Below, in pieces: positions 9,695 to 62,601 of a DNA stretch of 64,000 nucleotides. The translations under genes and the position numbers were made by a program. The notes under the pieces are model-generated. The model was not told the origin of the DNA, ran no database searches, and saw only the letters and a list, made by a program, of their open reading frames with translations. Positions within the stretch are counted from its first letter, which is position 1. Each line of letters opens with the position of its first letter. Source of the DNA: Thioploca sp. (GTDB taxonomy: Bacteria; Pseudomonadota; Gammaproteobacteria; Beggiatoales; Beggiatoaceae); the NCBI GenBank assembly GCA_012032555.1, contig JAAUSR010000015.1:1-64000 (forward strand), read 5' to 3'.

Positions 9695-12600
9695 AATCGC
9701 AGATATGTTGATATTCTTTCTCTACATAAGGGTTATTATTCAAATAATCTTTTACCCAATTACAACCGTGTATTCTTAGCTCTTCAAGTCCTTCAATCTG
9801 CCATATATAGACACCACTTTCGGTTATCGCAAAAAGTCGCTTGCTATCAGTGGTGAAGGTAATTCTACCTATACAATCTTCTCGTCCATTAAACTCAGCC
9901 AATTGGTTTCCCTCTAAATCCCATAGACGAACTTTGGCATCACATCCACCTGTAGCTAGTAATTTTCCATTGGGGCTAAGAATTGCACTCCGAATAGGTT
10001 TATAATGTCCTCTAAATATAGCCAGTTGATTACCTTCTAGATCCCATAACTTAGCAAAACCATCGCTTGCTGTGGTCAACACCTGCTTGCCATCATGAGT
10101 AAAAAGTATATTGCCGATTGTACCCGCATGCCCTTTGAACTTAGTCAATAGCTTGCCATCCTTATTCCACAAGCGGATTGTCCTGTCAAATCCACCAGTA
10201 GCTAATTGCAAACCATTAAAACTGAAAGCAATTGTTGTAATATCATAATTAAATTCAGCTAACTGATTACCCCTTAAATCCCATAAATAAGCAGCACCCC
10301 CCCATTCACTAACAACTAATCGCTTGCTATCCGGACTAAAAATGACACGGTTTACTCCACCTTTATACTTTTTTTTGAATTGGACTAATTGTTGTCCTTC
10401 CAAATTCCACAAGCGTACTGTACCGAGCCAATCATGGTACTTGTCATCTAAATTATCTTCAGCGGTAGCTAATATACGACTATCAGGACTAAAAATGACC
10501 CAGATTTCACCATTATGTCCTTTAAGATCAAAAAGTTGTTTCTTTTCTAAGTTCCATAAACGGACGTTACTATCTTCGCCGGCTATAGCTAGTTGCTTAC
10601 CATTGGACTAAAAATCATCCTGTCAAATTTACCCTGATTCTTTTCCAATTTAGTTAATAGATTACCCTTAAATCCCATAATTGGATGATGTTATCAATTT
10701 TACTTTGTTCTAATGTAGCCAAAGTTTGGCTATCTGGACTAAAACTGATACCTTTGACAGTGGATTTATCGCTTTTGAGGCTAAATAAATGTTGACCCAT
10801 TGAGTTCCATAAGTGTACTAGGCCGTTAGAATCAATGGTAGTTATATATTCATCGTTAGGGCTAATAGAGACCGTATTTCCTGCAAGAAATTTATCATTT
10901 TTGCGCTTCTTCAGTTTCCATAGGCGTACAGTATCATCGTCTCCCACCGTAGCTAGCGTGTTACCATCAGGGCTAACTTTTACTTTGATGATTTTACCTT
11001 CATGTTTCCCAAATTTATTAACTTGTCCTTCATTCAAATCAAATAAATAAGCAAAACCATCAGAACCGGCAACTATCACCTGCTCATCAGGCGTAAAGTC
11101 AACACCCCTAGCAACCCAATCACTTTCTGGATAGTGTTTTGGGTATTTAGCCAACTGTTTACCTTCCAAATCCCATAACATGACATAAGGACCGAATTCA
11201 TTAGTGACAATTCGGTCGCCAGTAGGACTAAAAATAGCTTGAACCCAACCTTGGGTTCCATGAAATTCAGTTAATTGTTGACCTTCTAAGTTCCACAAGC
11301 GAACTATACCATCTTCGCCAGAAGTAGCTAGTAGAGTACCATTAGAATTGAAGGTTACTGTATTCCCACCTCGATGCGGTTTTAATTCAAGCAATTGATT
11401 ACCAGATAAATTCCATAAACGGGTAATCCCATCTTTTCCGGCAGTGGCTATTTTTTGATCATCCGGACTAAAGACTACATTGTTAATTCCCCCTTGGTGT
11501 CCCTTCAACTCTAGCAATAGGTTACCTTGTAAATCCCATAAACGAGCAATCCCATCTACACCAGCAGTCGCTATTTTTTGACCATCAAAACTAAAAACAA
11601 CATCGTTAATTCCACCTTGATGTCCTTTCAATTCTAACAATTGCTCACCCTCCAAATTCCATAACCTAGCTGTGCCATCTTCTCCTGAAGTAGCCAATAA
11701 TTGACTATTCGGACTAAAAACAATCCCAGTAACATTGCCTTGATGTGCCTTGAATTCCCTGATCACTTGACCTTTCAAATTCCATAACCTGGCAATATTA
11801 TCTTCTCCAATAGTAGCAATTAAACTGCTATTAGGACTAAAAATTATCTGACTAACCCCATCATGATGTCCTTTTATCTCAAGACGGTTAAACTCCTTTA
11901 CTCGATCAACAAGTTTTTGTAATATATCTTCAATTGGAGCCGATAATCTTCTTGATGCAACTATTGGAATTTGCGAATTTTTTTCTGCGGCATAAAGAAC
12001 TTTTACCAAGCCATTTAACTCATTGTTTAAAAGTAAATCTGTTTTTGATAAAGCTGTAAGAGCTGTTACTTGACCAATTTCAGCATTAACTTGAGCTTGT
12101 CTGGCCTTTGTCATCTGCCACCCAGAAAAAATTAACAAAATAACGGCAATAACTAACCCTGCTGTCAGTGAAGCCAAAATAATATTACGTTGTTTTTGTT
12201 TTGTTTTTTCTGCTGATACGATTACGTCATGACTCACTTGAATAAACTCTCGCTGTAGTGGTGTTGGTGCAGGTTGCTTATTTTTTTCTAGCGCCTTATC
12301 TCGCCAAGTTTCCGCATTCTGACAAGCGGTAATATTCAACAAAAAATCCTTACTACGGTTATTGTCATTCCAATCACTCGCCCGCTGTTGCAACACGGTA
12401 TGCTGATGCGCATGCTCCCGATCCAGATCCAACGTTTGAATTAACTCCGGAAAAACTTGCTCAAAAGGCGTATTTTGAAAATCTAGCCAATTAATCGTTC
12501 TCAAGGCTGGGGGTAAAGTTGTTGGTGTGGTTGGACGCCACAAAATGGGAATAAACCGTTTACACTGAGTATTGGCGTAATTGACCTCTCGTTCGCAGTA

Positions 12601-14234
12601 GGGTGATTCCACGGCATCTGGTGAGATAATTAAGATAAAATTATCTGCTCCTTCAATGCCTTTAAAAATCTCCCGCTCAAAATCGACGCCGGAGCTGATG
12701 CTTTCTTGATCAAACCAAGTGGTTTTACCAGCAGCTTGTAAAGCCAGATTTAACTGTCTAGCAAAATCGCTATCTTTACGTGAATAAGAAATAAACACCT
12801 CGGTGCCTAATTGCCCTTTGGCAGCTTCACTGGTGGTAATCAGCGCCAGATGGTGTTCGGTGGGCGGATGTTCTAACCGGTCTTGATGAAGGCGTAACCA
12901 AATTCGGGCGTTGTTCAGATTATGTCCGCGTAATAAAAAAGCCGGTTGCTGGTGAGCTTGTTGCCACTGGAGGGCGCGCGCGAGGAGAATTTTATGTTGT
13001 TCGTAGTAGGTTTGGTCATGGTGTAGGATTTTGAGTAACGGATCGATCTGGATACCGTGAGTAAAATCCAAATGTTGTAAAGTCCGAATTGATTCTGGAA
13101 TATCCGCCGTTGGCGTTGAAGCAATCACAAGCGGAATAATGCGTTTGTGGTAGCGTAGCGCATGTTTCAGTTCCTGCTGACAATAACTCGACTGAATAGC
13201 TGCTGGCGACAGAAAATAAAGAAAATTATCTGCGGTTTCAATCCCAACTTCAATTGCCCGGGTAAAGTCAGTACCTTGGCGAATATCTTGATCATGCCGC
13301 CAAGTGGTAATCGCTTGCCGAGCTAACTGCCGCACCACCTCATTCCGAATCGCTTGATCAGCTACATCGTAGCAGATAAACGCGTGAGTCATCAGGTTAA
13401 AACTATTTTTGCGGGACTCGCAGATAAATTCACATTGCAAATCAGTTGGTTGACACGGTGATTGTTCACCTTCGAAAAACTCCGTTAACAACCAATCTTC
13501 GGCTTGGGAGCGTTCTTTGCCCACTAATAAATAGCGTGTTAATCGCTGGTGGCGTTGCCAGGTGAGTGTTGCCAACAAAATTTCGGTGTGTTTCTGTACA
13601 TAAGGTTTATACCGATCTAACACTAGTTGTAGCCGTTCCACCACACTAGCTAAAGAGGCGATACTTTCGCCAAATTCAGGAAATTGGAAGGTGGTTAAAT
13701 AGTCGATCTCTTCGTGCCTATGCCAATGATTTTCGTAACTTTGTGCCCAAGTTTCCAGTTTGGCACAATCGGCATCTGACATTTTTTCTTTGGCATTTAA
13801 CCAATCGGTTGGGCCAATCAAAGCCAGGGAACGATCTAGCACGGCTTGTGTCGTTTGGAGGTTCGGATCGGGAAGATAGTAAACGGCATAAAAATCGTGT
13901 AAATAGGCTTGGTCAGCAGCGGATAATTCCCGCGAATTGGTCTGAAAATCACCAGGTGATCGAGAGGAATCACCCGTTTACCCAACCAGCGGGCATATTC
14001 TAACTCGGTCAAACAATAAGGCGAAGTCAAACTCCGTGGGGCCATCACGTAGACAAAATTGTGAGCAGTTTCAATCCCATGACGGATTCGCTCGGCGTAG
14101 TCGTCACCATCCGGAATGTTGACTTTATCAAACCAAGCGTCGTAACTCGCTAGTTTGAGTTGTTGGTGTAAGCGTCCTACCAAACCCAAGCTTTCGCGAC
14201 GACCGTAGGAGATGAAGAAGTCTTTGGTGAGCAT
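9693..14234 (-). CDS. Giant triple-TIR, transmembrane, WD40-repeat protein (frameshifted)
   Basis: Three consecutive frames form one gene of about 1,514 residues once single bases are restored at 13945-13948 (A run on +), 10668-10669 (TT) and 10603-10604 (TT). Order: TIR1 (residues about 4-95, FFISYGRRES), TIR2 (about 280-370, HAFICYDVADQ), TIR3 (about 475-570, VFISYSRKDS). Each TIR is followed by a similar helical linker with a 'LL..AL.W' motif and a 'W' module. One membrane helix lies at about 685-705 (TAGLVIAVILLIFSGW). About 17 WD40 blades run from residue 780 to the end, finishing in GCNWVKDYL. Against the SARM1 catalytic Glu, TIR3 has Glu (VDFEREI), TIR2 has Thr (TDFTRAI) and TIR1 has Ala (DDYAERI). 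TIR domains commonly cleave NAD or make ADP-ribose signals; WD40 arrays act as sensors or scaffolds. A membrane-tethered sensor-effector in defence or regulated death is inferred. Confidence 0.85.
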
Positions 14235-49386: not shown

Positions 49387-51264
49387 TTAGGATTTATTAG
49401 TTTTATCAATCGCTTGTTCGGTTTCTGCTGGTGGAGATTGTTCTTCACCTTGTTGTTTTTTCAAGTCAGCTAAAGTTTCCTGCATTTCTTTCATCCAGCC
49501 TCTAAATTCACTTTGTAAGATCCGTTCAGTTTGTCCAACTAACTGATCAATATTATATTGTTTAGCTTGCTCTGTTTCCGATAAGGCTATCCACCAAGTA
49601 CGCACACTGAAGAGGTCAGTCGCCGATTGGTTATACTTAATTAAAGTGCTTTCTATTTGTTGATATTCCATGTAAGTCGTGAGTGCAGTTACGAATGCTG
49701 TCGTTAAAGCAATCCATAATTCCAATCCGGCAGCCGCTAGAAAAGTACCAAGACCACCAATAATATAAATTGACCATTGTAAAGCTTTTAACCGTTTTTC
49801 TAATTTCTTAACTTTGTTAGTGTAATAATTTAATTGATCTTCAAGACGATTATTAATATAGCTTTCTGGCGATAATGCGCTTAAGCCATCATCATCTGGT
49901 GCTACACTATTCCGTGGTGGAATAATATCCTGATTGGGTTGATGTAGTGAGGATACATTGACTTCCGTTTGTACTAGATCTTTAGCAATCGTTCGTAACT
50001 TTTCAGAAAATTTAATTTCTGGCGCAGTTGCGTTAGCCGGACTGTAAATTTCTGCTTGGGCACGATAACGAAAAATTTCCAGTTTTATTTCCTCAGCGGC
50101 GGTGCGTAAGAGTATCCATTTCGTGCCAGCATTAAAACGATTAGCAGCGGCTAGAAGGATAGTGGTAGTAATAGGAACAAGTACAATTAAGTAATGTAAA
50201 AAAAATGGAATAGAAAAGTCCCATTTGGGTAACTCTGAAGGAAAGTCCAATTGCTTTTGTATCAGCGCTAAGATAGTACCAAATATGCCAAGACATAAGA
50301 TAGCTAATTGCAGATAATGAAATTGATATTGTTGACGAGTGGCGTTGTAGTCATACAAGTTAAACCGTCGCCAAGCAACTTGGAGAACCGTATCACCCTG
50401 TGATTGCCGATAGGCTCGATGAATAAGCCGCTTTAACTCAGTAGCTTCACCCTCAATCGAAAACAGGTTAATTTTACCTTCAGTAATAATCTCGGCTAAA
50501 GCCGGATTTTCAATAAAGGTCGGGGAATCAGAATCTTTGGCATCTTGATAGGTTCGATATAAGGTGGCAATTTCATCGGCTAATCGTCCACTGCCTTCTA
50601 TGACAATAATGGGAATCCCTAAACGGACACTTTGTAATATTTCCAGGCGAGAAATTTCACCGCCATTCACTAACACAGTAAAAACCGGTAAATTTTCCGT
50701 TTGTTGGCGGCAAGCTGAAACCAAGCTATACATCGTTCCGGTTTCTCCACCCCATTGAGCGGTTTCCACCAGGACAAAATGCGTGTGATGAGGCTCTAGT
50801 GGTACTCGATCTTCGGCTGATAAGGTACCTTCCTCGGAGATAGCTTTAGTTGGATAGGTTATTAAAGCCGCCGGGGCAATTCCTATCAACGGAGATTGAC
50901 AATTATATTCAGCTATACTTTTGCCTAACAAAGCAATCACACCACTGTCTGTTCCGCCACTGATAAATCCAGCACCAATTTCTGTGGCAGCACGAACGAT
51001 CCCACGACCAAATAGTTGTTGCAATCGTAATTGCAAACCACGTTCTAACTGCTCAAAATTGGCAGCCCCACCGGATAATAGGATTAGTGCATTAAATGAA
51101 AGCGGCTGAAGCGATGTTAAAATTGATTGTGGGTTAGTTTTAGGAGCAACGGTAATTAAACTAGCTGAATGGCCACTGGGAAAAGTAATGGTCTTACTGG
51201 ATTCCAAGTTGGATTCTGCTTTAGTCTCTTTAGTTTTAAGGGTGAACGCTGAAGAATTCATCAT
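49387..51264 (-). CDS. SLOG (TRPM-like LSDAT) - SLATT membrane sensor/effector
   Basis: Encodes 625 residues. Residues about 57-235 are a Rossmann-like SLOG domain of the prokaryotic TRPM/LSDAT group: ALILLSGGAANFEQLERGL, AATEIGAGFISGGTDSGVIALLG, 'HTHFVLVETAQWGGETG' and IPIIVIEGSGRLADEIATL. Then come two membrane-hairpin units: about 315-375 (LAILCLGIFGTILAL and LIVLVPITTTILLAAANRF) and about 490-535 (IYIIGGLGTFLAAAG, LWIALTTAFVTALTTYM), each followed by helices typical of SLATT/DUF4231. In computational studies of conflict systems, SLOG binds nucleotide-derived ligands and SLATT is proposed to breach the membrane. No synthase gene adjoins it. Standalone gene. Confidence 0.85.
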   Translation of the reverse strand: MMNSSAFTLKTKETKAESNLESSKTITFPSGHSASLITVAPKTNPQSILTSLQPLSFNALILLSGGAANFEQLERGLQLRLQQLFGRGIVRAATEIGAGFISGGTDSGVIALLGKSIAEYNCQSPLIGIAPAALITYPTKAISEEGTLSAEDRVPLEPHHTHFVLVETAQWGGETGTMYSLVSACRQQTENLPVFTVLVNGGEISRLEILQSVRLGIPIIVIEGSGRLADEIATLYRTYQDAKDSDSPTFIENPALAEIITEGKINLFSIEGEATELKRLIHRAYRQSQGDTVLQVAWRRFNLYDYNATRQQYQFHYLQLAILCLGIFGTILALIQKQLDFPSELPKWDFSIPFFLHYLIVLVPITTTILLAAANRFNAGTKWILLRTAAEEIKLEIFRYRAQAEIYSPANATAPEIKFSEKLRTIAKDLVQTEVNVSSLHQPNQDIIPPRNSVAPDDDGLSALSPESYINNRLEDQLNYYTNKVKKLEKRLKALQWSIYIIGGLGTFLAAAGLELWIALTTAFVTALTTYMEYQQIESTLIKYNQSATDLFSVRTWWIALSETEQAKQYNIDQLVGQTERILQSEFRGWMKEMQETLADLKKQQGEEQSPPAETEQAIDKTNKS

Positions 51265-53294: not shown

Positions 53295-53504
53295 TTAATC
53301 TTAATAAGTTTAACGCAGTGTGCAACTTTTTATAACAATTTGATCTAAAATAATTGAATTTAACTCGCTTTTAAAATATTACAATAATCAATTATTTATA
53401 TAATACAGTTGTACATCGACTCATGTTTACTTTATTAATTATCTCAATGTTGCTCGGTGAGGGTATTCTTACTTACCAGAGAAACTTTTGTAAGGAGCGA
53501 GACA

Positions 53505-53951
53505 ATGCCAACAGCAACTTTTGCAGCCGGCTGTTTTTGGGGAATGGAAGGGATATTTTGTCAACTAGTCGGTGTTATTTCTATTCGAGTTTACGCGGAT
53601 GAAACTTTAGAAAATCCAAGTGACCAAACAGTTTATACTGATACCACCGATCATGCTGAAGTTGTCCAAATAGAATATGACACTGATCAAGTTTCTGATG
53701 AGACGCTTTTAACGGTATTCTGGACTAATCAGAATCCCACCTTTATCAGTACACCATACCGCTCAGTTATCTTTTTTCACACCCGAGAACCAGAAACGAT
53801 AGCTCAATTATCAACAGATAAATTTGCAAAATTCGATCAATATCACACATCGATTATGACTAAAATGACCCCAGCTACTTGGTTTCATCCTGCAAGAGAA
53901 TGCCGTCAGCCCTATTTAGAAAAAAACGGACTTCCCCATTGTTCAATTTAA
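53505..53951 (+). CDS. MsrA-like peptide methionine sulfoxide reductase, divergent
   Basis: I choose ATG 53505 (aaggagcgag upstream, 148 residues) over an upstream start at 53457. The MsrA hallmark TFAAGCFWGMEG with the catalytic Cys is intact. The family's TGHAE is TDHAE here, and 'HDPT' is NQNPT. PYRSVIFFHT and a C-terminal CRQPYLEKNGLPHC with possible recycling cysteines follow. It lacks parts of the usual substrate loop (GYTGG is replaced by VYADE). It would reduce methionine-S-sulfoxide. The next gene starts 47 bp later. Confidence 0.8.
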   Translation: MPTATFAAGCFWGMEGIFCQLVGVISIRVYADETLENPSDQTVYTDTTDHAEVVQIEYDTDQVSDETLLTVFWTNQNPTFISTPYRSVIFFHTREPETIAQLSTDKFAKFDQYHTSIMTKMTPATWFHPARECRQPYLEKNGLPHCSI

Positions 53952-53997: not shown

Positions 53998-54906
53998 ATG
54001 ATAAATATTTTTAGGTTGGTAATACTTATTAGCGCTTTACTTGTTATCACCATTACTCACGCGACACCGAGTGCAGCAACTTGGCAGCGTGAGAGTTTAA
54101 TTGGCTGTAATGAAAAATATTTTTATACGTTTATTCTTGAAAGAAATAATCCAGCTTCTTACTTTGAATACACTGAAACTTTTTCATTGGCTCAATATGA
54201 AATCGCTAGTAGGAAGTTAGCTAATAAAACAGTTATTAGAAAAACCCGACACATTGATAAACAAGCGGATGGTCATTGGATTAAAGAAGAGCAACAGACA
54301 AATGTTTTTGATTTAAATCAATTTCTAAGCAAAGATAACTTGGTCTATATTTTTCCGGCAGATATGAGTGAAACTCAATGGTTCGTTCAAGCGGATGGTA
54401 TTTATTTACAAGGTGATAAAGGCCGAGTTATTTTAGTATCAAAATCGGACCTCACCACCGCAGTACCCTGGTTTAATGCCTATTCTAAAATAGCCGGTCT
54501 CTATGAAATCAATAACAACTATTATGTGTTACTAGAACAAGGTGATGAATTCGGTGGTCGCTCACTGGATAATGACTTTCAACAAACGATTATTGTGGTA
54601 ACCGGTGATAACTATCAGAAAAGTTGGCAATTACTTAATCAGGGAACCACTCAAAAACCTTCTAGCGATCAGAATCCTTGGCAAGTTCAAGTCGGTTGTT
54701 TTAAAACTATCTCCAGTGCCGATCAATTGGTAAAACAATTGGCAAAGGCTGAATTTAAGGCACAGATTAGTTTTAGTAAATCAACTAATTGTCATCGTGT
54801 TATCTTGATTCCACGCCAAGTTACTCAAGAATCAGCTAAACAACAAGCTCAGCAATTGCAAGATAAACTCAACATCAAAGGCTACATTGGGAAGGTGGAA
54901 GAATAA
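53998..54906 (+). CDS. Exported SPOR-domain protein
   Basis: ATG 53998 (gggagaag upstream) gives 302 residues. Signal peptide with cleavage after THA (about residue 22). The body is a beta-rich domain with no known match. The last 75 residues are a SPOR domain (WQVQVGCFKTISSADQLVKQ, FKAQISFSKS, CHRVILIPR), which binds denuded septal peptidoglycan. So it is probably a periplasmic protein recruited to division sites. Confidence 0.8.
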   Translation: MINIFRLVILISALLVITITHATPSAATWQRESLIGCNEKYFYTFILERNNPASYFEYTETFSLAQYEIASRKLANKTVIRKTRHIDKQADGHWIKEEQQTNVFDLNQFLSKDNLVYIFPADMSETQWFVQADGIYLQGDKGRVILVSKSDLTTAVPWFNAYSKIAGLYEINNNYYVLLEQGDEFGGRSLDNDFQQTIIVVTGDNYQKSWQLLNQGTTQKPSSDQNPWQVQVGCFKTISSADQLVKQLAKAEFKAQISFSKSTNCHRVILIPRQVTQESAKQQAQQLQDKLNIKGYIGKVEE

Positions 54907-55163
54907 CAATGTGGTTAATTTTATATCATGGCACTTTGATATCGACTTATTAATAATAGATATTTATAAAAAATGTCCGAAACATTGATTACGGTAATAC
55001 ATCACGACTTGATGTATTAAGGACTTGAGTTTGTAACCCTATTCTAAGTGAATAGTATTTCTGGCAAGGGAAATAGTATTTTATTTTTTGCCCAGTTTGT
55101 TGTCTTGCATTCCGTAGAGTATAACCAATCAATTTCTCGATGTCCTCCTGCTTGGGACTGATT

Positions 55164-56060
55164 ATGAAAATAAATGGTATAAGAATAGATAATACCTTTG
55201 CCGAAGGTTTCTCCATGCAAGCGACTCGGATCCTGATTACTGCTCATGATCGGCGTTGGGCAGCAATTGCTGCCGAAGCCATGACTGGTTTTGCAACCTC
55301 TAGCTTAGTTTGTGGCTGTGAGGCGGGTATTGAACGTGAGTTGTCCCCTGACGAAACACCCGATGCACGTCCTGGTTTTGCTATTTTATTATTTGCGATG
55401 AATAGTGAAAAACTGGCTAAACAATTACAAAGTCGAGTTAGTCAATGTATTTTGATGGCCGCTACGAGTGCTTGCTTTGCTGGTATTCAGAGCAATCAAC
55501 CAGTTCCATTAGGAAGTCTCCTCCGTTATTTTGGCGATGGTTGGCAAGTTTCCAAAGTCATTAATGGCAAACGTTATTGGCGTATTCCAGTTATGGAAGG
55601 AGAATTTGTCTGTGAAGAAAGCACCGGGATGGTTTCAGCTATTGGTGGGAGTAACTTTTTTATTTTGGCAACCACTCCTTCAAGTGCACTAGCCGCTGCT
55701 GAGATTGCTATTGAAGCGATACGTCATTTACCTAATATTATTATGCCTTTTCCGGGAGGAATTGTTCGTGCTGGTTTTAAGTTTAGTTCCAGATACAAAA
55801 ATCTCATGTTTTCCACGAATCATTTATTTTGCCCTACCTTAAAAGGACAAGTGAATTCCGCATTAGACCGAGAAACCGATGCTGCACTTGAAATCGTGAT
55901 TAATGGACTAAGCGAGCTGGATATTCGGCAAGCCATGCGAGTTGGTATTCAATCAGTTTGTGCTTTAGGACGAGAACATGGTATAACTCGTATTAGTGCT
56001 GGTAATTATGGTGGTGAAATGGGGTCTTTTCATTTTCCCCTACAAGAGATTTTAGCATGA
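55164..56060 (+). CDS. ftr: Formylmethanofuran:H4MPT formyltransferase
   Basis: Start chosen at ATG 55164 (MKINGIRIDNTFAEGFSMQA), the conserved N-terminus of the family; this gives 298 residues, the family length. It transfers formyl between methanofuran and tetrahydromethanopterin in the C1 oxidation pathway used by methylotrophic bacteria. Motifs: AAEAMTGFATSSLVCGCEAG, ETPDARPGFAILLFAM, KRYWRIPVMEGEFV, 'NIIMPFPGGIVRAGFK' and ISAGNYGGEMGSFHFPL. It overlaps fhcC by 4 bp (ATGA). Also called fhcD when part of the Fhc complex. Confidence 0.95.
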   Translation: MKINGIRIDNTFAEGFSMQATRILITAHDRRWAAIAAEAMTGFATSSLVCGCEAGIERELSPDETPDARPGFAILLFAMNSEKLAKQLQSRVSQCILMAATSACFAGIQSNQPVPLGSLLRYFGDGWQVSKVINGKRYWRIPVMEGEFVCEESTGMVSAIGGSNFFILATTPSSALAAAEIAIEAIRHLPNIIMPFPGGIVRAGFKFSSRYKNLMFSTNHLFCPTLKGQVNSALDRETDAALEIVINGLSELDIRQAMRVGIQSVCALGREHGITRISAGNYGGEMGSFHFPLQEILA

Positions 56061-56881
56061 CACCATTGACCTTTACTCTTAAAATGGTACCACCACAGCG
56101 AGTCGATTTATCTAATTTAGTCCCTCATTTACTGGCACATTTATCACTTACTGATATCGCTGGTTTGCCCTTACCTTGTGGCAACCGAACTTTACGAGTA
56201 GATAACTTGTTTGAAATCACTGGCAAAAATCCGGAAAAGTTGTTGTTTTATAATACCTGTAACACCTTAGATAGCATTGGCAACAATATGCAAGGTGGTA
56301 TTATCAGGGTACATGGTGAAGTTGGCGCTTATTTAGGACAGAACATGAAAAGTGGTGAAATTAGCGTTTTTGGTAATTCCGGTATGTATGTAGCTGCTGG
56401 TATGTCAGGGGGAGAATTATATATACAAGGTAACGCTGGCAGTTTCTTGGCGGCTGCCCGACCAGGAGAACCCATGGGATTAAGAGGGGGACGAGTGATT
56501 GTCACCGGTCAAGCTGGAGATCGAGTGGGTGATAAGATGCGTCGTGGTCTAGTATTGATTGAAGGTGATGTTGGTGATTATTGTGGCACCAGAATGATCG
56601 CCGGTACTATCGCCGTGTTTGGTCAAGCCGGTCGCTACACCGGTTTTGGTATGCACCGTGGCACTTTACTTTTATCACAACCTCCACTTCATTTACCAGT
56701 GACATTCAACGAATGTGGCCAATATGATTTATTATTTTTAAGATTATTAGCTCAGGTGCTTCATTATGCTAATAGTCCTAAGCGGACTAGCCTTTCTAAA
56801 CCGGTTCATCGCTTCGTAGGTGATATGGCTTGCCAAGGTAAAGGTGAATTGTTGATTCTCAATGCCGCTAAACCTTCATGA
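56057..56881 (+). CDS. fhcC: Formyltransferase/hydrolase complex subunit C (FmdC/FhcC)
   Basis: Encodes 274 residues. The glutamate-synthase alpha-like beta-helix is visible as repeated GGxIxVxG strands: MQGGIIRVHGEVGAYLG, MKSGEISVFGNSGMY, MSGGELYIQGNAG, RGGRVIVTGQAGDRVGDKM and IAGTIAVFGQAG. It scaffolds the FhcABCD complex with Ftr. Subunits A and B, which carry the hydrolase active site, are not in the window. The downstream gap 56882-57190 has only a palindrome. FmdC-type domains also occur in other enzymes, but the ftr neighbour fixes the role. Confidence 0.9.
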   Translation: MTPLTFTLKMVPPQRVDLSNLVPHLLAHLSLTDIAGLPLPCGNRTLRVDNLFEITGKNPEKLLFYNTCNTLDSIGNNMQGGIIRVHGEVGAYLGQNMKSGEISVFGNSGMYVAAGMSGGELYIQGNAGSFLAAARPGEPMGLRGGRVIVTGQAGDRVGDKMRRGLVLIEGDVGDYCGTRMIAGTIAVFGQAGRYTGFGMHRGTLLLSQPPLHLPVTFNECGQYDLLFLRLLAQVLHYANSPKRTSLSKPVHRFVGDMACQGKGELLILNAAKPS

Positions 56882-57110
56882 AGGTGAATTAACACTCATT
56901 CATTCTGTTATGGGTATCTTGATGCACCATGATTAGCTTAGCAATGCTCACCTACCCTGTTTATCCCGTGAGATTTTCTGGGTGCTAACCAAGAATTGGC
57001 ATTTGAACTGTTCACTAAAACGATCAATCCAACAGTTAAAGCATAATTTGGTGTCTTAAAACCAATAACTCATTCTGATCCAAAGTAATCGTTTGAATAA
57101 TAGCCTAGTT

Positions 57111-57165
57111 CGAGTATAGTTCCGGGTTTTTTGGATTTTACTGCGGTTCATCCGGGCTATACTCG
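57111..57165. repeat. CGAGTATAG palindrome
   Basis: CGAGTATAG...CCGG pairs with CCGG...CTATACTCG (one bulge, about 26-nt loop). It lies between fhcC and the toxin gene. The left arm word ttcgagtatagtt also occurs at 42825-42837. A terminator without a T run or a dispersed repeat. Confidence 0.5.
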
Positions 57166-57190
57166 CCTAATTTAATGGCATTCGCTCAGT

Positions 57191-57595
57191 TTATTTTCTT
57201 ACCCAATTTTCTAATTGTAATTCATCAATTCGATTAAAATGACTATCGTCAGTGACTAAAATTAAGTGATGTGACTGTGCAGTCGCTGCAATCAAAATAT
57301 CTGCATCGGGTAATAGTTCGCCTTGACGCTTTAAGTGAGCATAAATAGTGGCCGCTTTATCTAAAACTTTTTCACTATCAATACCAATGATTTCACAATC
57401 AATTAATAGCTGATTGAATAAATTTAGTTTCTGACTAGCTTGGCTTACCAGTAACCCCCGTTTAATTTCATAGTAAGTCATCGAACTAAGGAAGATTTTT
57501 TTACCTAAACGTTGTGCCAATCGAACTTTAATTAACACTTGATGATTTTGTTTTAAAATAGCAGAGATAATATTGGTGTCTAATAAGTAGTTCAT
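57191..57595 (-). CDS. VapC-type PIN-domain toxin
   Basis: Encodes 134 residues of the VapC ribonuclease toxin group: MNYLLDTNIISAILK (first Asp), central 'YYEIKRGLL' (Glu) and LLPDADILIAATAQ with LILVTDDSHFNRI (Asp pair). These bind Mg and cut tRNA or rRNA. It follows the partner gene by 7 bp. Confidence 0.88.
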   Translation of the reverse strand: MNYLLDTNIISAILKQNHQVLIKVRLAQRLGKKIFLSSMTYYEIKRGLLVSQASQKLNLFNQLLIDCEIIGIDSEKVLDKAATIYAHLKRQGELLPDADILIAATAQSHHLILVTDDSHFNRIDELQLENWVRK

Positions 57596-59240: not shown

Positions 59241-59627
59241 ATGATAAAACCGATACGCCCCTTATCACCTCATTTACAGATATATAAACCGCAATTGACT
59301 TCATCGATGTCAATTTTTCATCGTCTTAGTGGTGTATTCTTATCGTTGAGTACTTTAGTATTAGTCTGTTGGCTCATGGCAGTAGTAGCCGGTGAACCCG
59401 CTTATCAACAAGTACAAAATTTATTCAATTCCTGGCTAGGATTAGTATTTTTATTCAGTTGGTCTCTCGCTTTATTTTACCATCTGTGTAATGGTATCCG
59501 ACATTTATCTTGGGATGTGAGTTTAGGAATGAATATTAAAACAGTTTACATGACTGGTGGGTTAGTTTGGGTAGCTACTTTGTTGTTGACGGGTTTAACA
59601 TGGCTACTGGCTATGATGATGAAATGA
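59241..59627 (+). CDS. sdhC: Succinate dehydrogenase cytochrome b556 subunit
   Basis: 128 residues from ATG 59241 (a TTG six bases upstream is less likely). Membrane anchor and quinone site of complex II. SdhC signature: RPLSPHLQIYKPQLTSSMSIFHRLSG, with Ser and His, and the heme-ligand block HLCNGIRHLSWD. Three membrane helices (about 25-48, 68-88 and 105-125). First gene of sdhCDAB. Confidence 0.95.
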   Translation: MIKPIRPLSPHLQIYKPQLTSSMSIFHRLSGVFLSLSTLVLVCWLMAVVAGEPAYQQVQNLFNSWLGLVFLFSWSLALFYHLCNGIRHLSWDVSLGMNIKTVYMTGGLVWVATLLLTGLTWLLAMMMK

Positions 59628-59635
59628 GGGTTATC

Positions 59636-60018
59636 ATGAACTTGCGTACACCTTTATCGCGGGTACGAGGATTGGGGTCAGCACGAGATGGGACTCACCA
59701 TTTTACCCTGCAACGCCTTTCCGCTATGGCTTTAATACCACTCACCTTATGGTTCGTCGCTTCGCTCATCTTTTTTATGCTCAGAGCGAGTCATGCGAGT
59801 TTGGTTGGTTGGATAAAAGCACCTTGCATGCCGAATTACTGATCTTATTTTTCCTGTTTTTATTTTATCACGCTTATATTGGCTTACATGAAGTGGTCGT
59901 CGATTATGTGCATAATCCCATTCTTAAAATGACCACAGTGGTGTTAATGCAACTCGTCATCATGACGATGACGACAATTTCAGTATTAGCTATATTACGG
60001 ATTACGTTGGGAGGCTAG
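59636..60018 (+). CDS. sdhD: Succinate dehydrogenase membrane anchor subunit, frameshifted
   Basis: ATG 59636 (gaggg upstream) opens [39 protein letters not shown] and a helix. The frame breaks at the A run 59815-59818; one more A restores [14 protein letters not shown], then the heme/quinone block [18 protein letters not shown] and the last helix. The repaired length is about 128 residues, normal for SdhD. Nine bp after sdhC. Complex II is essential for respiration, so an assembly error is likely. Confidence 0.92.
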
Positions 60019-61822: not shown

Positions 61823-62601
61823 ATGGTTCAATTTACGCTGCCATCTCATTCCGTTGTCAAAAAAGGCAAAGTGGTTAATCCGGGTATCAATGCTAACAAC
61901 CTAAAAAAATCATAATTTATCGTTGGGATCCAGAGATACCAGCTAATCCTCGAACCGATATTTATGAAATTGATTTAGACCATTGTGGACCAATGGTATT
62001 AGATGCACTCATAAAAATTAAAAATGAAATTGATTCTACCTTAACCTTTCGCCGCTCTTGTCGCGAGGGTATTTGTGGCTCTTGCGCCATGAATATTGAC
62101 GGAACAAATACTTTAGCCTGTACCAAGCCGATTAAAGAAATTAAAGGGGCAGTAAAAATTTATCCTTTGCCGCATCTAGAGGTGATTAAAGATCTGGTAC
62201 CCGATTTAACTCACTTTTATGCGCAATACGCCGCTATTAGACCTTGGTTAGAAAGACAAACTCCCATTCCACCTGATCAAGAAATCTTGCAATCAAAAGC
62301 CGATCGGGCCAAATTAGATGGATTATATGAATGTATTTTATGTGCTTGTTGCTCAACCAGTTGTCCAAGTTATTGGTGGAATGGTGATCGTTACTTCGGA
62401 CCGGCTATTTTATTACAAGCCTACCGTTGGCTAGTCGATAGTCGTGATGAAATGACCGGTGAACGCTTGGATAACTTAGAAGATCCATTTCGCTTATATC
62501 GCTGCCATACCATTATGAATTGTACTAATACCTGTCCAAAAGGGTTAAATCCAGCAAAAGCCATTATTGAAATTAAACAGCTGTTGGTGCAGCGACGTTA
62601 A
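61823..62601 (+). CDS. sdhB: Succinate dehydrogenase iron-sulfur subunit, frameshifted
   Basis: ATG 61823 opens [20 protein letters not shown] and meets a stop in LKKS*. One more A in the run at 61903-61909 gives [12 protein letters not shown] and joins the main frame. About 259 residues after repair. Clusters: [2Fe-2S] [21 protein letters not shown]; [4Fe-4S]/[3Fe-4S] [16 protein letters not shown] and [17 protein letters not shown]. Last gene of sdhCDAB, 12 bp after sdhA. No sdhE follows. Confidence 0.95.

Follow-up and report, generated by a model that had tools for sequence, protein, structure and literature searches.

Formyltransferase/hydrolase genes kept under purifying selection in a Thioploca lineage without detected genes for the tetrahydromethanopterin pathway

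Genes of the formyltransferase/hydrolase complex (Fhc), namely ftr and the fhc genes, are often taken as signs of methylotrophy or C1 oxidation. A 64-kb stretch of DNA from Thioploca sp., a large sulfur bacterium, analyzed here at its full length and called the window below, carries two of them side by side, and it raises the question of where the rest of the complex is encoded and what the complex could be doing in this lineage. Both genes are on the plus strand: ftr (fhcD), for formylmethanofuran--tetrahydromethanopterin formyltransferase, occupies an open reading frame of 306 aa at 55140..56060, and fhcC, for subunit C of the complex, one of 274 aa at 56057..56881. Ftr scores 401 bits against TIGR03119 (one_C_fhcD; cut-off 292.6) and 426 bits against NF002554, and it also matches Pfam FTR and FTR_C; FhcC scores 249.8 bits against TIGR03122 (one_C_dehyd_C; cut-off 130.65). 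With scores well above the family cut-offs, the pair is not a product of chance. The preliminary description of this DNA had reported an ftr-fhcC pair with a 4-bp overlap, which the family models and the ATGA at 56057-56060 bear out. It had also begun ftr at 55164, inside the open frame, and an alignment of starts favors this choice: the internal Met at 55164 is the exact start in two of four aligned relatives (G010 and G020), and in the other two the open frame is longer and has a Met at the same position. The ATG at 55164 is probably the start of ftr.

The pair is flanked upstream by a SPOR-domain gene and downstream, on the other strand, by a vapC-like gene and its partner. A scan of the 2.4 kb from 54800 to 57200 says little: it yielded 13 promoter-like matches, where shuffled sequence averages 6.5; these lie on either strand, some of them within genes, and the plus strand has no terminator-like site. 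Elsewhere in the window, a minus-strand gene at 49387-51264 combines LSDAT_prok (SLOG in TRPM), DUF4231/SLATT_3-like, and SLATT_1 domains in a TRPM-like prokaryotic architecture, which we take to be linked with defense or signaling. An MsrA copy at 53457-53951 looks degenerate, with 119 bits for PMSR versus 222 bits in the genome of the same genus.

The earlier statement that no fhcA or fhcB lies around the pair holds, as tblastn with the proteins of G010 found neither gene in the 64 kb of the window or in the 12 kb that follow it on the contig. The window's genome (G000; 5.55 Mb in 198 contigs, 99.69% complete) does encode both, each as a single gene on the minus strand of another contig. The fhcA gene, at C166:93408-95008, was recognized by its family model and is split into two frames by a one-base shift; fhcB, at C29:24447-25637, scores 247 bits, below the cut-off of 327.8 bits, and FhcB of G010 is likewise below it at 275 bits, though all tested pathway genes are present in that genome. 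The pair thus provides two subunits of an Fhc complex, Ftr and FhcC, and single genes at other sites provide the remaining two. It had been proposed that A and B are either elsewhere or that the pair has another use: the first is correct, fhcA standing alone on C166 and fhcB alone on C29 with no linked fhcAB, and the second may be true too.

The Fhc genes of G000 are spread over three loci, and this dispersal is common to G001, G010, and G011. G001 belongs to the same genus, is 100% complete in a single closed contig of 4.81 Mb, and is presumably Thioploca ingrica; G010 and G011 represent other genera of the window's family, the former being, we assume, a Beggiatoa and the latter very probably Thiomargarita sp. 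isolate SulCav_FS08_3_3_44_224. All four genes (ftr, fhcA, fhcB, and fhcC) are present in G000, G001, and G011, and hence in two genera, and FhcA exceeds its cut-off in 4 of the 19 family genomes searched (G000, G001, G010, and G011). In G000, the neighbors of fhcB are ABC transporter genes that look yej-like by eye. In G001 as in G000, fhcA lies directly before nifL-nifA (L011:8585-13056; L010:5170-10015), with a gap to nifL of 57 bp in L011 and with NifL and NifA assigned by NCBIfam for G001; the three genes are perhaps co-transcribed. We considered the neighborhood as a clue to function and rejected it, since G010 and G011 have other neighbors with no common theme.

The preliminary description had regarded the D-C order as reversed. 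We compared 83 ftr loci, which are the best 80 of 557 confirmed matches plus L002-L004 and are mostly labeled Methylococcales or unnamed proteobacteria. The order fhcB-fhcA-ftr-fhcC occurs in 50 of these 83, some of the others being cut by contig ends, so that D-C is the normal order in this class. Within the same selection of loci, 61 of the 74 with both ftr and fhcC have the same 4-bp overlap, and ftr-fhcC stands alone in 21 of the 83. Eleven of these 21 have at least 5.9 kb of sequence upstream and 5.0 kb downstream, the others lying nearer a contig end, and two of the eleven, L091 and L098, come from the window's own family. G001 and G010 share the arrangement of the window, and in G011 ftr and fhcC abut. 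The D-C order was rejected as a novelty because both it and detached pairs occur in other genomes, and the combination of dispersal and D-C order was rejected too, as G010, with its tested pathway genes, is also dispersed. The ftr-fhcC pair itself is ordinary.

The pair had further been read as a sign of formaldehyde or methanol oxidation, with a search of the whole genome suggested as a check. We searched whole genomes with family HMMs for Mch, Fae, beta-RFAP synthase, Mpt_N (MtdA/MtdB), the 4HFC-P synthase MfnB, and PQQ alcohol dehydrogenase. In G000, G001, and G011 these models found neither Mch nor Fae, both of which are present in G010 and G020; neither beta-RFAP synthase (H4MPT synthesis) nor Mpt_N, both present in G010, G020, G026, and G029; and no mfnB (PF04476; methylofuran synthesis), which was found in G010, G020, G026, G029, and G030. 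PQQ alcohol dehydrogenases over the cut-off number three in G010, two in G030, and one in G029, and there are none in G000, G001, or G011, where the matches are weak (<30 bits, in open frames of 395-465 aa), nor in G020 or G026. As the PQQ marker is absent over the cut-off from G020 (with mch and fae) and G026 too, it proves little alone. The whole-genome check of G000 thus turned up fhcA and fhcB and, by these models, no Fae, MtdA/MtdB, or Mch, no beta-RFAP synthase, and no PQQ methanol dehydrogenase as a source of formaldehyde. With these genes and that for 4HFC-P synthase undetected in all three genomes, methanol or formaldehyde oxidation is unlikely in the window's lineage, judging from gene content. 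In G006, a family member without ftr, these genes are also absent (no fae, beta-RFAP synthase, Mpt_N, or mfnB by HMM) save for a partial Mch-like match at G006:C32:4741-5427 (L030; 113 bits, below the cut-off).

To have ftr without mch is rare. Of 369 genomes sampled from the class, 50 have ftr and 47 of these have mch; the exceptions are G000, G303 of the same family, and G026, which is 75% complete and carries beta-RFAP synthase and mfnB. When G001, G010, G011, and G030 are added, the tally is 48 of 54. G030, to which L091 (Thiotrichaceae bacterium STC_44) belongs, and G303 are very probably one and the same genome. If only sampled genomes with a completeness of at least 90% are counted, every case of ftr without mch belongs to the window's family. 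L091/G030 has ftr-fhcC, mfnB, and two PQQ alcohol dehydrogenases over the cut-off, and no detectable mch; G030/G303 could be an intermediate stage of pathway loss, or could use another route from formaldehyde. As a separate observation, an additional, clearly more divergent Ftr of ~279-318 bits occurs in ten of the class-sample genomes (G058, G063, G104, G140, G199, G204, G228, G306, G331, and G352).

Are the remaining genes decaying? Between G000 and G001, the one species pair for which dN/dS was determined, the values are 0.085 for ftr, 0.068 for fhcC, 0.165 for fhcB, and 0.079 for fhcA, with bootstrap upper limits of at most 0.24, similar to the 0.057-0.271 of ten neighboring genes. Neutral simulation at the observed dS produced on average 9.0 internal stops in ftr, 9.2 in fhcC, 12.4 in fhcB, and 21.1 in fhcA, with minima of 2, 1, 3, and 8 in 1000 runs; the four genes of this pair contain none, the fhcA frame shift apart. 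The Fhc genes of the two species are not decaying neutrally and are under purifying selection. Since both species are without the pathway, it is simplest to suppose that selection went on after its loss, a reading that two independent recent losses would weaken.

Ftr has 137 columns with a conservation of at least 98% among 83 references; of these, 17 are altered in G000, 14 in G001, and 10 in G011, against 2 in G010. For FhcA (234 near-invariant columns, 58 references) the corresponding numbers are 38, one of which is the X at the frame shift, 29, and 63, against 12. FhcB (68 columns, 54 references) gives 14, 14, and 20, with 15 in G010, and FhcC (49 columns, 73 references) 2, 2, and 3, with 3 in G010. 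L091 and L098 (the latter from G011), both from genomes without mch, are among the references for Ftr and FhcC, so that columns may be broken by these and the test is milder. Relative-rate tests against G010 with G020 as the outgroup gave 44:16 (p 0.0004) for ftr of G001 and 43:15 (p 0.0003) for that of G011, and 68:40 (p 0.009) and 124:40 (p 3e-11), respectively, for fhcA. For fhcC the results were 36:19 (p 0.03) and 49:21 (p 0.001), the excess of G001 not being significant with two other outgroups, so that it is clear only in G011. For fhcB neither 34:48 (G001) nor 48:39 (G011) is significant; G011 reached 58:35 (p 0.02) with outgroup L078, one of three outgroups and the only one to give significance. 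L091 is faster as well (ftr 43:16, fhcC 58:16), and a TatC control, short at only 163 sites, gave 10:14. Ftr and FhcA have evolved faster than in G010. In an Ftr tree of 20 rows, five family sequences fall on one side of a branch with weak support (60/41). The ftr of L110, labeled as a Klebsiella pneumoniae MAG, groups with that of a Baikal Gammaproteobacteria MAG, and L110 is probably mislabeled.

FhcA of the window's genome calls for separate consideration. Its frame shift, of one base in a T run, was considered as proof of a pseudogene and rejected, as nifA and queT (L010:5170-6701 and 11961-12653; queT named by eye) have each lost one base in this assembly relative to the genome of the same genus, both in short single-base runs. 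Together with apparent frame shifts in sdhD and the start of sdhB (59567-60018 and 61993-62601 of the window), this points to indel errors in the assembly, and the fhcA shift is probably one of them. The substitutions K180Q, H231Q, and H233Q (G001 numbering) are another matter. They alter positions that are conserved in 58 of 58 references and in five solved A subunits aligned, and the window's genome is without the complete motifs of the binuclear metal site, which are intact in G001 and G011. According to the accessible text of PMC11656701, the A subunits of FMD hold two metals by four His, one Asp, and one carboxylysine. Read from the motif, K180 would be the carboxylysine and one of H231 and H233 a metal-binding histidine, so that the three positions would include two of the six ligands. 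G000 and G001 differ at 61 of the 553 positions of FhcA, and on that basis a naive hypergeometric calculation for the metal-site changes yields values from 0.03 (three of seven) to 0.13 (two of six), which are not strong alone. In addition, the lysine at position 67 of G010 FhcA, which aligns to the 'gatekeeper' Lys64 of the archaeal enzyme in the available portion of PMC11656701, is replaced by Pro in G000 and by Gln in both G001 and G011; as Asn occupies this position in 6s6y, the top solved A subunit, the change alone means little. As encoded in the window's genome, FhcA probably does not function as a hydrolase.

The explanation that we favor begins with a family ancestor that probably had the whole H4MPT- and methylofuran-linked pathway of formaldehyde oxidation, as G010 still has. 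The lineage of G000, G001, and G011 would have lost methanol dehydrogenase, Fae, MtdB, and Mch, and with them one marker gene for the synthesis of each coenzyme, all absent by HMM. The four Fhc genes were nonetheless kept, under purifying selection in the same-genus pair, while Ftr and FhcA changed at otherwise near-invariant positions. The remnant would most likely still move or remove formyl groups, taken from another carrier, for which 10-formyl-tetrahydrofolate is the simplest candidate, though a guess; in the window's species it may be reduced to Ftr, FhcB, FhcC, and a pseudo-hydrolase. We regard the redirection of the retained complex to another formyl-transfer or deformylation role, as suggested by these sequences, as the most likely reading, though about evenly poised between right and wrong. 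A more specific version, in which the whole complex is freed from both coenzymes and in one species FhcA, its metal site broken, is a pseudo-hydrolase, is more tentative and somewhat doubtful. In Fhc, the formyl group is shuttled on methylofuran between two active sites, and with mfnB missing this would speak against a redirected role, as would the probable failure of FhcA in the window's genome as a hydrolase. FhcB, moreover, shows no clear rate change and FhcC no change at near-invariant sites. Operon structure gives no clue to a redirected role, the neighborhoods of the Fhc genes being unrelated from genus to genus.

Alternatively, the Fhc genes have no function and are what is left of a lost pathway, in slow decay and awaiting removal. 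Such a relic, which we consider unlikely though well worth weighing, would suit the disappearance of the rest of the tested pathway, the lost metal-site residues in G000 FhcA, and the drift of Ftr and FhcA at near-invariant sites. Loss is also common in the family, FhcA being below the cut-off in 15 of the 18 other family genomes searched, and PMC5020050, in its accessible text, describes recent loss of parts of the same pathway in Nitrosococcus. Decay is, however, hard to square with dN/dS values of 0.07-0.17 and no internal stops where 9-21 are expected neutrally in the same-genus pair, or with the retention of all four subunits, and only these among the genes tested, in three genomes of two genera.

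It is improbable that Fhc works in its usual way with H4MPT, methylofuran, or analogues obtained from neighbors or made by unrelated enzymes. The intact FhcA metal-site motifs of G001 and G011 would fit such a complex, and the accessible part of PMC5020050 mentions non-homologous replacement of coenzyme-synthesis genes, at other steps. Yet beta-RFAP synthase and 4HFC-P synthase are both absent, and with mch, fae, and mtdA/B missing nothing known would form methenyl- or formyl-H4MPT. Methylofuran, for which PMC8141765 describes, in the text available, the formyl-carrier role with Fhc, the synthesis genes, and a long polyglutamate chain, would be unlikely to be taken up on account of that chain. 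Ordinary H4MPT-linked formaldehyde oxidation, with its other genes missed or lying in gaps among the 198 contigs of an assembly that has frame-shift errors, is very improbable: the closed genome of the same genus is without the same genes, every pathway model finds its target in G010 (E 1e-38 to below 1e-230), and the Fhc genes were all found in G001, where identity to G010 is 57-66% for ftr, fhcC, and fhcA and 44% for fhcB, and even at 34-68% identity in G011.

The Fhc genes occur in a lineage seemingly unable to run the pathway or to make its coenzymes, and yet they are kept by selection. An Fhc that works without H4MPT and methylofuran would have a wider substrate range than is known. If it does not so work, the lineage may show the order in which the pathway is dismantled, from G010, complete for the genes tested, through G303/G030, which retains mfnB and methanol dehydrogenases and has no mch, to G000, G001, and G011 with Fhc alone. 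Among the listed results of searches in mostly open-access literature, no report of Fhc retained without its coenzymes was apparent, and a search joining Thioploca and tetrahydromethanopterin returned nothing.

Compared with Fhc (FhcABCD) of methylotrophic Proteobacteria, the complex of the window's genome is the same in that four subunits are encoded and match the family models, and in that the ftr-fhcC order and the 4-bp overlap are the common gammaproteobacterial ones. It differs in the dispersal of its genes over three loci (as in G010), in an FhcB below the family cut-off (again as in G010), in an FhcA without metal-site residues, and in belonging to a lineage without detected fae, mtdA/B, mch, beta-RFAP synthase, or mfnB. 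Methylotrophy of Beggiatoa has reportedly been treated by Jewell (2008) and Orlova (2018). G010 resembles such organisms in holding the tested gene set and three PQQ dehydrogenases, its genes being dispersed, whereas the window's lineage is without everything tested but Fhc. As far as its accessible text goes, PMC11172852 places demonstrated methylotrophic growth near Beggiatoa and describes two other genera of the family as having no methylotrophy genes. The available portion of PMC5020050 offers a further parallel: Nitrosococcus oceani and N. watsonii have partial H4MPT gene sets from which key genes are missing, a close relative has the full pathway with methanol dehydrogenase, the gaps are read there as recent loss of function, and partial H4MPT sets and recent losses are also described in Methylophilaceae. 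Going by that portion, the two cases are alike in that a close relative is complete, here G010, and others have gaps. They differ in that Nitrosococcus has clusters minus key genes, whereas here, among the genes tested, only four dispersed Fhc genes remain, in three genomes of two genera and with purifying selection measured for one pair.
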